Shown here piece by piece: positions 1-4,643 of a stretch of DNA of 34,478 nt (the stretch's first letter is position 1; the number at the start of each line of letters is the position of its first letter). The notes beneath the pieces are model-generated. The model had not been told where the DNA came from. It saw only the letters and a list, made by a program, of their open reading frames with translations, and did not search any database. Source of the DNA: an alpha proteobacterium SCGC AAA280-B11 (GTDB lineage Bacteria; Pseudomonadota; Alphaproteobacteria; Pelagibacterales; Pelagibacteraceae); contig AQUH01000009.1 of assembly GCA_000371745.1 (NCBI GenBank), positions 1 to 34,478 of the forward strand, read 5' to 3'. The position numbers were made by a program, and so were the translations under genes.

Positions 1-95
1 CTTCTACTTCCTAGAACAATCACAACTTTTTGTCCAATATTCGTATCTAACATTAAAGCAATGCAGCCTCCCGCAGCCCTAATGTAACCTGTTTT
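1..95. repeat. Left arm of perfect 95-bp inverted repeat
   Basis: Reverse complement is identical to 4497-4591; mismatch at base 96; left limit is the window edge. Confidence 0.97.
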
Positions 96-683
96 ACTAA
101 CAATAAACTTATGCTGTTGACCAATTAAAGGATTGGTATTTCTAAATGAGAACCAACTATTTTTTAATTTAATTTTAACCAAAGAGGTTTGAGATGCTTT
201 TACAATGAGTGGATAGTTTTTTGCAGCAAGCACCATCTTAATTAGATTCTTTGCCGTACTAACATTTTCTTCATTTAGCCCACTTGCATCAACAAATTGA
301 GTATCCATCATCCTTAATTTTTTTGCTTTAAGATTCATTGCTGCAATACAAGCATCGGTTCCGCCAGGATAGTTTTCACACAAAATATCAGCAGAGCGGT
401 TATTGGATTTAATTAAAGCAAGTTGCAAATGTTGGCGTCTTGTAAATTTTCCAATTTTTTCATCTAAGTTTTGATTTGCATCAAGTACCACCATTGCCGT
501 CATTAATTTTGTAATACTTGCAATACTGTGTAATTCATCGTGATTAACGGATTTTATAATTTTGCCGTTGCCATCTGCAACCAACCAAGATGTTGCTGTA
601 ATTTGTTTTGCTTTTTTAACAGCAAAACTTTCCCCGCAAAAAACAAAACTAAAGGCTAGAATAAGAAAAAGTACTTTTTTCAT
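1..683 (-). CDS. D-alanyl-D-alanine carboxypeptidase (peptidase S11 family), 3' end runs off/rearranged at window start
   Basis: Manual translation from ATG at 683: MKKVLFLILAFSFVFCGESFA (signal peptide) ... SITKLM (SxxK), KSNNRS (SxN), SKTGYIRAAGGC (KTG). No stop before base 1. Confidence 0.9.
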   Translation of the reverse strand, partial: MKKVLFLILAFSFVFCGESFAVKKAKQITATSWLVADGNGKIIKSVNHDELHSIASITKLMTAMVVLDANQNLDEKIGKFTRRQHLQLALIKSNNRSADILCENYPGGTDACIAAMNLKAKKLRMMDTQFVDASGLNEENVSTAKNLIKMVLAAKNYPLIVKASQTSLVKIKLKNSWFSFRNTNPLIGQQHKFIVSKTGYIRAAGGCIALMLDTNIGQKVVIVLGSR

Positions 684-723
684 TTTATGCTCAATTATAT
701 TGATTTGTATTAATAAGAAGGGG

Positions 724-1368
724 TTATTTTATTCTTATCAGCAGAATAAAAACAAGGGCTGCTAAAAATTGTGCGATAATAAAAGGCATAACATCCGCGC
801 TTTGAATTCCTACAAACGTATCAGTAAAACTTCTTGCAATGGTTACCGCTGGATTTGCAAAGAAAGTTGAAGAGGTAAACCAGTAACCGCAGGTTACTGT
901 GAGTGCAACTAGCATTGGAATTTGTTTTTTGTCACTTTTGCCTCCAAAATAAATCACACTTAATAAAACTAAAGTAGAGATAAATTCACTAACGTAATAA
1001 TTAATTCCAGATCTTTCATGGGTTGAGACTTCAATAATAGGTAGCGCAAAAATAAAATGTATAACAAGCACTCCAGAAATTGCTCCAACTAGTTGGCAGA
1101 TAAAATATTTAATTAACTCATTAGTTTTTAATTTTTTATTAGACCATTCTAAAAAACTAACTAGAGGATTAAAGTGTGCTCCTGAAATAGGCATCAATAC
1201 TGAAATCAGAACAAACAAACCCGCACCCGTTGCAATACTGTTTCCAAGTAAAGCAATAGCATTATTATTTCTTGAAAGATTCTCACCCATAATTCCAGAG
1301 CCAGTAATGACCGCAAGTAACAAGGCAGTACCAATAAATTCACTAACTAATTTTTTATTCATTTTCAT
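724..1368 (-). CDS. MIP family channel (aquaporin/aquaglyceroporin-like)
   Basis: Multi-TM; SGAHFNPLVSF (first NPA-like box is NPL) and FFANPAVTIAR (second NPA box). Overlaps the arsC-like ORF by 14 bp. Confidence 0.85.
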   Translation of the reverse strand: MKMNKKLVSEFIGTALLLAVITGSGIMGENLSRNNNAIALLGNSIATGAGLFVLISVLMPISGAHFNPLVSFLEWSNKKLKTNELIKYFICQLVGAISGVLVIHFIFALPIIEVSTHERSGINYYVSEFISTLVLLSVIYFGGKSDKKQIPMLVALTVTCGYWFTSSTFFANPAVTIARSFTDTFVGIQSADVMPFIIAQFLAALVFILLIRIK

Positions 1369-2044
1369 AAATCTCTTTTAATTTAGTCTTTAATGTTGTT
1401 GCATCCAATGTATCTAAAGGAAGTTTTATCATTTTTTCAATTTTATTTTGAAGCTTTTCTTTCACTTCATCAAAGGAGGCGCGCATTTGATCCGGAGTTC
1501 CAGTCACTGCTGATGGGTCTCTAAATCCCCAATGCACTTGCACTGGATGACCTGGCCAAATAGGGCACATCTCTTTAGCAGCGCTATCACAGACCGTAAT
1601 GACAACATCCATCTTTGGCGAATTTGGTTTTGCATATTCATCCCAACTTTTTGAATAAAGTTTTTTAGTATCGTACCCTAATTCCTCTGCAATTTGTTTT
1701 GCAATGGGGTTTACCGAAGTTTTTGGAGTTGAGCCTGCGCTATAGCCTACAACTTTTCCTTTACCTAAAGTGGTTGTAAGGACTTCGCCTAGTACTGATC
1801 TTGCAGAATTATGAGTGCAGAGAAATAAAATATTAACGGGCTTCAATCTTTTTTTATAAAAGTGTCGGTATAAAAATCCAATTAAAATAGCGCCTGTGGC
1901 ACCACCCATAAAGAAGACATCGAACATATCTTCTAAATTCCATTTAGCGTGAACAACATATTTATAGATAGTTGTTGCAACCATTCCAATTCCAAAGCCT
2001 ATTAGATCTTCAGTCTGGTATTTAGAGAAAAATTTTTTAAACAT
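1355..2044 (-). CDS. arsC: Arsenate reductase (LMW-PTP-like ArsC) with N-terminal membrane-spanning extension
   Basis: VNILFLCTHNSARSVLGE (CX5R P-loop), DVVITVCDSAAKEMCPIWPG, HWGFRDPSAVTG; about 70 aa hydrophobic N-terminal extension (FGIGMVATTIYKYVV, FFMGGATGAILIGFLYRHFY). Confidence 0.85.
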   Translation of the reverse strand: MFKKFFSKYQTEDLIGFGIGMVATTIYKYVVHAKWNLEDMFDVFFMGGATGAILIGFLYRHFYKKRLKPVNILFLCTHNSARSVLGEVLTTTLGKGKVVGYSAGSTPKTSVNPIAKQIAEELGYDTKKLYSKSWDEYAKPNSPKMDVVITVCDSAAKEMCPIWPGHPVQVHWGFRDPSAVTGTPDQMRASFDEVKEKLQNKIEKMIKLPLDTLDATTLKTKLKEIYENE

Positions 2045-2051
2045 ACTTAAA

Positions 2052-2084
2052 TTAAAGTAGGCGAAATAAATTCGCCTACTTTAA
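2052..2084 (-). terminator. Perfect 14-bp stem / 5-nt loop hairpin downstream of the COG4315-like gene and just upstream of arsC
   Basis: TTAAAGTAGGCGAA-ATAAA-TTCGCCTACTTTAA, read directly; 12 bp past the 2097 stop, followed on the minus strand by TTTAA-rich sequence. Confidence 0.7.
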
Positions 2085-2096
2085 ATATAATATAAA

Positions 2097-2474
2097 TTAT
2101 TTTTTGATGATGTGCCAAACGTTGTTCACGTTGTCACCAGTCTTCTCACCTTTTTTGGTATCTTTCACCCAGTAGTAAAGTGGTTTACCATCAAAAGCCC
2201 ACTGTTTTTTACCATCATCACGAGTGATAATTGTAAATTTATCAGCAGCTTTATCTTTATCCGTTGCAAAGTACGGAGGCCATTTATCAGCACACTCGCC
2301 GTTACAAACTGATTTACCACTTCCTTTTACATCTTTATCAAAAGTATAAAGCGTCATTTCTTTTGCACCTACTAAAATTCCATCATCGAATTTTGGTTTT
2401 GCAAAAAGATTAGACGTTAAGCTTAGAGAAAGGATGAAAAGAGAAATAACTAAGTTCTTAATTATTGTTTTCAT
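2097..2474 (-). CDS. Secreted COG4315-type repeat protein (lipoprotein_15-like)
   Basis: Signal peptide; KEMTLYTFDKDVKGSGKSVCNGECADKWPPY ... GKKQWAFDGKPLYYWVKDTKKGEKTGD, typical of the family. Confidence 0.8.
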   Translation of the reverse strand: MKTIIKNLVISLFILSLSLTSNLFAKPKFDDGILVGAKEMTLYTFDKDVKGSGKSVCNGECADKWPPYFATDKDKAADKFTIITRDDGKKQWAFDGKPLYYWVKDTKKGEKTGDNVNNVWHIIKK

Positions 2475-2758
2475 GTTTTCTTTAGTTGTTAATTGTTTAA
2501 ATTTTATACTTATTTACTGAAAAATAAATATTTGATTAATGCTGCAATCACTAACAAATATGCACAAATTAAAAATGAAATATAAGTTACATATCAAATC
2601 TAATTCAGAACTTTTCAGATACTGCCGTTCGCTTGTAATTAGCTAGGCTTAGTAATTATTTTTTTTAGTATAAATTTTATATCCAAATATTCAATACAAT
2701 CATTGGACTAAAAAAGTCCTACAGTTTCTATTATTTATATTCTTGGGGAGGAACAGAG

Positions 2759-3133
2759 TTGCCGTTAGATAAAGATTCAATTTCAGACATCAGTTCTTAT
2801 TTATTCGATGAGTTCTTAAAAAATTCAGAAAAGTATAAGATTGTTTCATATTTTAGAAGATCACCAGGCGGTAGCTTGCTGATGTTCAAGATTATGCATA
2901 ATTATTTTTTAAATGAAGATTTACATGTGGAAGAATTAATTAGAAAAGTTCCAATAAGTATTGCAAGTAGACTTTCTTTATTTACTTTAATTGATACTGC
3001 AGTTAAAAAAAATTTTTTAATTAAAGAAGGATCGACTGGAGACAAAAGAATGAAAAGCATTATTCCATCTGAATCCTTTATAAAGGAATACAAAGATTGG
3101 TTGCATAATTATATAAGTGGTATTACGCGCTAA
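2759..3133 (+). CDS. Small winged-helix (MarR-like) putative regulator, paralog A
   Basis: ELIRKVPISIASRLSLFTLIDTAVKKNFLIKEGSTGDKRMKSIIPSESFI; similar to the 3221 and 30783 ORFs. Start codon is TTG. Confidence 0.55.
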   Translation: MPLDKDSISDISSYLFDEFLKNSEKYKIVSYFRRSPGGSLLMFKIMHNYFLNEDLHVEELIRKVPISIASRLSLFTLIDTAVKKNFLIKEGSTGDKRMKSIIPSESFIKEYKDWLHNYISGITR

Positions 3134-3220
3134 TAAAATTCTAATAAATTCAACAATAATAGACCTGTAAAAAAAAAAAAACAGATTGCCATTCAATGTA
3201 TTTCTATTTAATATTTTTAT

Positions 3221-3637
3221 ATGGCTAACAAGATTGTAAAAATTAAAACTAAACTTGATCCATCAATACCGCTTGCAGAATTATACGTTAAGAACATATT
3301 TTTTACTTACATTGATGATAATTTTAAAGAAATTAATTATTGCAGAGCCGATCTGACAAGACATTTAATGTTACTTAAGGCCATGGAGTACGATCTTGGA
3401 AAAAGATTACTTCGATTTGAAGATTTAATAGATGCAATTCCACATAATGTTTGTTCTCGTTCTCATAAAGTGCATTGCATCAATGACTTATGCGAGAGAG
3501 AAATTTTTGAGAGAAGAGAAAATCCAAATGACAAACGTTCAACGATTATTGCACCATCAAAGAAAACAAGTGATCAGTATTTAAGACTGTATAATCTTTA
3601 TAAGACTACGATCCTACTATACGAATTTAAAAAGTAA
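3221..3637 (+). CDS. Small winged-helix (MarR-like) putative regulator, paralog B
   Basis: DLIDAIPHNVCSRSHKVHCINDLCEREIFERRENPNDKRSTIIAPSKKT; shared SR...I..R..D.R...I.PS pattern. Confidence 0.6.
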   Translation: MANKIVKIKTKLDPSIPLAELYVKNIFFTYIDDNFKEINYCRADLTRHLMLLKAMEYDLGKRLLRFEDLIDAIPHNVCSRSHKVHCINDLCEREIFERRENPNDKRSTIIAPSKKTSDQYLRLYNLYKTTILLYEFKK

Positions 3638-3679
3638 TTTTTTTATCTATAATTTATACACAAAAACTATTTATTTTTT

Positions 3680-3877
3680 TTATTTAAAAAACTTAAAAAG
3701 TAGCGAGACAATAATTGAGATCACAATGCAGGTTACAATTGGAAAATAAAAAGAATATTTTTCACCCTTCACACTAATATCCCCTGGTAATCGCCCTAAT
3801 GGAAGTTCTCTAACTACTGGCCAAAATAATCCAGCAAGTAAAACAACAATACCAAGAATGATTAAAATTTTTTGCAT
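3680..3877 (-). CDS. DUF2905 family small membrane protein
   Basis: 65 aa, two TM segments, LAGLFWPVVRELPLGRLPGDISVKGEKYSFYFPI. Confidence 0.8.
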   Translation of the reverse strand: MQKILIILGIVVLLAGLFWPVVRELPLGRLPGDISVKGEKYSFYFPIVTCIVISIIVSLLFKFFK

Positions 3878-3878
3878 A

Positions 3879-4493
3879 TTATTTAATTAAGGATATTAGC
3901 TCAGAAAGTTTATTTATTTTATATTTAGCTTTGAAACTAAGTCGATCAAATGTTGTGTTATTCCTATTAACCCAAATTGCATTAAAACCATAAACTCCCC
4001 CACCAACTACATCCCAAGGATTTGAGCTTACAAAACAAACTTGTTTGGGTTTGCATTTATATTGTTTGGTGACTAATTCGTAAACTTTAGGGTGAGGTTT
4101 ATAAATTTTAACTTTTTCAACGGAAATAAGTTTATCAAATAAATTTTCACATTTTGCATTTTTAATTAGCGTTTTTAATAGCGATGGGCTGCCATTTGAG
4201 AGAATGCACGTCTTAATATTTTGTAATTTAAGCATTCTGATTGTTGCTTTTAAGTCAGAGTAGGGAGATAATACTTTATATAATGTTAGTAATTTAGATC
4301 TTACTTTTCTACTCACTTTAAAAGCCTCTAAAGTGTAATCTAAAGAATCTTCTGTGACCTTCCAAAAATCTTTATGTTTACCCATTAAACTTCTAAGCCA
4401 AGTGTATTCAAGTTGTTTTGTGCGCCACAGTGTTGAAAATTCAAACCATTTTTTACCCAATTGTTTTTTTAAAATTTTTGATGCGGAGTTCAC
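3879..4493 (-). pseudogene. HAD superfamily, haloacid dehalogenase type II-like, truncated at its N-terminus at a junction
   Basis: ILSNGSPSLLKTLIKN, KIYKPHPKVYELV, SSNPWDVVGGGVYGFNAIWVNR are typical; the motif I region (FDxxGTL with nucleophile Asp) is absent and sequence homology stops at FDVNSAS next to the 4497 repeat boundary. Confidence 0.75.
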
Positions 4494-4496
4494 GTC

Positions 4497-4591
4497 AAAA
4501 CAGGTTACATTAGGGCTGCGGGAGGCTGCATTGCTTTAATGTTAGATACGAATATTGGACAAAAAGTTGTGATTGTTCTAGGAAGTAGAAG
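4497..4591. repeat. Right arm of perfect 95-bp inverted repeat
   Basis: Identical to the reverse complement of 1-95. Confidence 0.97.
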
Positions 4592-4643
4592 TACTCACAC
4601 TAGAATTCCAGAAGCTGTATTTATCGCAAGAGCTTACAAATAA
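4497..4643 (+). pseudogene. C-terminal fragment of the D-Ala-D-Ala carboxypeptidase
   Basis: In-frame KTGYIRAAGGCIALMLDTNIGQKVVIVLGSRSTHTRIPEAVFIARAYK*; its first part duplicates the end of the 1-683 gene. Confidence 0.9.

Follow-up and report, generated by a model that had tools for sequence, protein, structure and literature searches.

A perfect 95-bp inverted repeat bounds a segment of 4401 bp at the start of the contig analysed here. We consider it very probably (roughly 97%) the product of an amplification chimera together with a k-mer overlap artefact of assembly, and not an invertible element. The repeat has no biological meaning in this reading, and is ordinary except as a warning about the draft. 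The window, by which we mean the whole stretch of DNA analysed (34,478 bp), is the complete contig C9, one of the 47 contigs of a draft that totals 672,291 bp and is estimated to be 55% complete. Its start at base 1 is therefore the start at a contig end.

Geometry of the inverted repeat

Sequence comparison shows that bases 1–95 are the exact reverse complement of bases 4497–4591, with no mismatches. The match ends at exactly 95 bp, base 96 being A where the reverse complement of base 4496 is G. A preceding sequence-only reading had reported the perfect repeat, the mismatch at 96/4496 and a left arm beginning at base 1; recomparison gave the same result, and base 1 proves to be the edge of the entire contig. 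No other inverted repeat in the window approaches it in length, the runner-up spanning only 51 nt at 71%, and it cannot be attributed to chance. The 95-mer occurs in two copies in the searchable part of the draft, both in C9; contigs shorter than 3 kb (C26–C47) were masked as N.

The left arm (1–95, plus strand) is a contig-terminal 95-mer inside a carboxypeptidase gene, and the right arm (4497–4591, plus strand) is the same 95-mer in reverse complement. Between them, positions 96–4496 carry genes for an aquaporin, an arsenate-reductase-like protein, a lipoprotein-15 protein, a DUF2905-like protein and a HAD protein, as well as two small ORFs. In the arsenate-reductase-like low-molecular-weight phosphatase (1355–2044, minus strand) the domain begins only at residue 72. 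The N-terminal extension of about 70 residues in this protein has no alignment to relatives, whose matches begin at residue 70.

Two genes broken at one junction

The N-terminal 227 amino acids of a D-Ala-D-Ala carboxypeptidase/endopeptidase (Peptidase_S11; PF00768, E = 8.9e-35) are encoded at 3–683 on the minus strand, in a frame that runs from 683 to 3 and off the contig edge. The best NCBIfam match of this protein is D-alanyl-D-alanine endopeptidase, under the family cut-off. Its C-terminal end is located at 4592–4643 on the plus strand, with a TAA stop codon at 4641–4643, on the other side of the putatively artefactual loop from the N-terminal part. When 96–4496 is flipped, or the parts are joined through one repeat copy, a single in-frame carboxypeptidase of 244 amino acids results. 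Its alignment with nine relatives continues through the repeat as far as their C-terminus, at 53–69% identity; the TRIPE motif is present in the carboxypeptidases of all nine, and the tails match. That the gene halves lie on opposite strands and are joined in frame by a flip had been noticed before, and the alignment with the nine relatives bears it out.

The second gene affected encodes a type II haloacid dehalogenase (3879–4496, minus strand) without the N-terminal part that carries the DxYGT nucleophile motif; the match to TIGR01428 starts from profile position 14 of 197. In relatives with the gene start in view, the missing N-terminus reads ...VCAFDAYGTCF or ...ACVFDAYGTLF, and the catalytic DAYGT motif sits directly before the break point. 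The same reading had described this gene as cut at the other edge of the segment, and both the profile match and the relatives agree. A search of the draft's unmasked contig ends did not recover the missing N-terminus; flanks such as this one could be in the masked contigs of less than 3 kb. The order as given thus interrupts both the carboxypeptidase and the HAD gene, each otherwise intact, at a single point. We place the likely chimeric junction between 4496 and 4497, at the mismatch 96/4496, where the truncated HAD gene on the left meets the 3' part of the carboxypeptidase gene on the right.

Gene order in related genomes is informative about the orientation of the segment. In two relatives (L120 and L121) the MIP (aquaporin), phosphatase, carboxypeptidase and DUF2905-like genes are opposite in strand to the homologues of the window genes g8961 and g9529. 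As judged from gene orientation, L120 and L121 fit a contig in which 96–4496 is flipped, not the contig order as given, and 96–4496 would accordingly be reversed relative to 4592–34478. A synteny check of this kind had been proposed from the sequence, and its outcome favours the flipped order. A search for inverted repeats of at least 30 nt in the stretches of four relatives that cover this locus found none.

Fixed-length matches at contig ends

The terminal bases of all 50 unmasked contig ends were compared with approximately 349 kb of sequence from the same genome. Five of the 50 ends carry an exact 95-bp inverted repeat of sequence 1.4–6.4 kb inside their own contig, a count from stretches of up to about 10 kb (except in C9), so that longer self fold-backs would be missed. 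Besides the C9 start (1–95 and 4497–4591, loop 4401 bp), these are the start of C2 (L160; 1–95 and 4730–4824, loop 4634 bp) and the ends of C5 (L167; 35625–35719 and 40208–40302, loop 4488 bp), C8 (L173; 28908–29002 and 35450–35544, loop 6447 bp) and C16 (L189; 13572–13666 and 15025–15119, loop 1358 bp). All five self fold-backs are inverted and none is direct, the copies are always less than 10 kb apart, and one copy invariably lies at the extreme contig end. In addition, the start of C22 and the end of C24 dovetail by exactly 95 bp. A stop-to-stop ORF test of the other four fold-backs, which we do not use as evidence, gave a longer frame after flipping in C5 and C8, an equal one in C16 and a shorter one in C2.

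Terminal matches among the 50 ends come in two lengths and no others: seven measure precisely 95 bp and the other six precisely 86 bp. The 86-bp matches link the start of C3 with the end of C17 (L162/L176), C5 137–222 and 654–739 with both ends of C23 (L166/L177), C22 1439–1524 with the start of C24 (L195/L196), and the end of C21 with C25 3043–3128 (L194/L197). This second fixed overlap length counts against our account, which leaves it unexplained.

Because the length is fixed across unrelated sequences and one copy is always contig-terminal, the repeated 95-mer is best understood as a de Bruijn vertex. Having just one or two set lengths and always a contig-terminal copy is a property of assembler vertices, not of real repeats; we therefore conclude that k = 95, and the length pattern points to this value in the final assembly graph. 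Checking whether terminal repeats keep a constant length over every contig end of an assembly offers a way to recognise artefactual 'inversion-broken' genes. Since about one in ten of the unmasked ends (5/50) folds back, any gene that seems lost or broken, and any gene order, close to the contig ends of this draft should be treated with distrust.

A proposed origin of the repeat

The sequence-only reading had favoured a fold-back or chimera, or else a de Bruijn overlap artefact, and the 95-bp fold-backs at five ends and the C22/C24 overlap support it. Both halves of that proposal appear to belong together, with the chimera supplying the wrong join and the k-mer overlap the length of the repeat. 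In phi29 multiple displacement amplification (MDA), or by some comparable template switch, one strand may have copied the carboxypeptidase gene and the aquaporin and arsenate-reductase genes, continued into the HAD gene and then been displaced. Its displaced 3' end could have re-primed on the nearby opposite strand in the carboxypeptidase gene by homology of a few bases (AAA or longer), which would join it in inverted orientation to a site some 4.4 kb distant. From the conserved Phe codon TTT, the two sides of the junction should share AAA or more, and relatives with a TGT TTT codon pair, such as L130, would give a shared AAAACA; both are expectations, since the genuine sequence beyond 4496 is missing from the assembly.

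In a de Bruijn graph built at k = 95, the normal and chimeric continuations would branch at one 95-base vertex, as the length pattern supports. Both ends of the loop 96–4496 would attach to this same vertex, which would hence be printed twice, at 1–95 and at 4497–4591, the latter being the first k-mer past the chimeric junction. If U is the large right part, R the 95-mer and V the segment 96–4496, the true join would be U-R-V, and the other join, which leads out of V at 4496 to the reverse complement of R, would be the inverted chimera. The true order would then run from 34478 to 4497 (in reverse complement), continue from 96 to 4496, and proceed into the unassembled rest of the HAD gene.

Partial drafts are usual for single-cell genomes, and a draft that is 55% complete is compatible with a phi29-amplified single-cell genome. 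The pattern of the fold-backs suggests such a single-cell MDA origin. In MDA of one E. coli cell, 406 of 475 chimeras were inverted (85%), and among those joining segments less than 10 kb apart 337 of 348 were inverted and 11 direct (PMC1855051). Inverted joins across less than 10 kb are the main class of MDA chimera, and more than 70% of the junctions have 2–21 nt of complementarity (PMC1855051). A freshwater SAR11 single-cell study was assembled with Velvet and Allpaths (PMC4053759), and a literature search for a single-cell pipeline with k = 95 returned nothing usable.

Alternative explanations

The other option raised from the sequence was a real invertible segment, in which recombination between the 95-bp repeats flips 96–4496 and turns the carboxypeptidase gene off and on. 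The flip does restore that gene, and one gene of the tyrosine recombinase family (PF00589) is present elsewhere in the genome; however, it is unlinked, being located on C4. No match to a serine recombinase (resolvase/invertase family, PF00239) was found in the 55%-complete draft, and the loop proteins that were scanned gave no recombinase match either. The repeat, moreover, is ordinary carboxypeptidase coding sequence, has one of its copies flush with the contig end, is absent from the stretches of four relatives searched, and has the identical length at four unrelated contig ends. Its left arm has no outer flank, and no third sequence flanks the repeat in the searchable contigs (at least 3 kb). 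We consequently regard this option, which lacks each hallmark that could be checked, as extremely improbable. A still-active inversion by which a streamlined alphaproteobacterial genome would switch a cell-wall endopeptidase, with a repeat length equal to the assembler overlap by coincidence, is scarcely credible. Alternatively, the strain could carry a real, fixed chromosomal inversion or inverted duplication, base 1 being simply where the assembly ends. Relatives do vary in local gene order; in L122, for example, an Epimerase gene adjoins the carboxypeptidase gene. Yet such an event would split the carboxypeptidase and HAD genes at the same point and would leave the terminal repeats of exactly 95 bp at five contig ends unexplained, and we give it almost no weight.

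An unlikely variant, although one with a better claim than either of these, keeps the same artefact and is compatible with the k-mer step, but attributes the fold-back to library preparation or to the assembler alone (a false hairpin edge) and not to MDA. An overlap of length k is by itself silent on which step made the chimeric molecule. Short-insert library fold-backs, however, would usually be much closer together than the 1.4–6.4 kb seen here. The five inverted joins, at these distances, fit the spectrum of MDA chimeras (PMC1855051), and we continue to prefer an MDA chimera combined with the k-mer overlap.

Comparison with known systems

The arrangement in C9 shares with the phase variation systems Hin, Gin and fim the presence of inverted repeats flanking a segment whose inversion would mend a gene. 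Unlike those systems, it has no linked recombinase, one of its arms is contig-terminal, the repeat is absent from the stretches of four relatives, and its length recurs at unrelated loci. It also resembles the k-mer overlaps of adjacent contigs from a de Bruijn graph, which are exact terminal overlaps of constant length, here 95, within one assembly. In the usual case these overlaps join one contig to another, whereas both C9 copies are found in a single contig, where the edge would turn back, reverse-complemented, on the vertex it had left. The join itself is similar to the inverted MDA chimeras described by Lasken and Stockwell (2007; PMC1855051), in that segments less than 10 kb apart are joined in inverted orientation and short homology at the junction is plausible. 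That study differs in that the C9 case is known from the assembled contig alone and not from reads.
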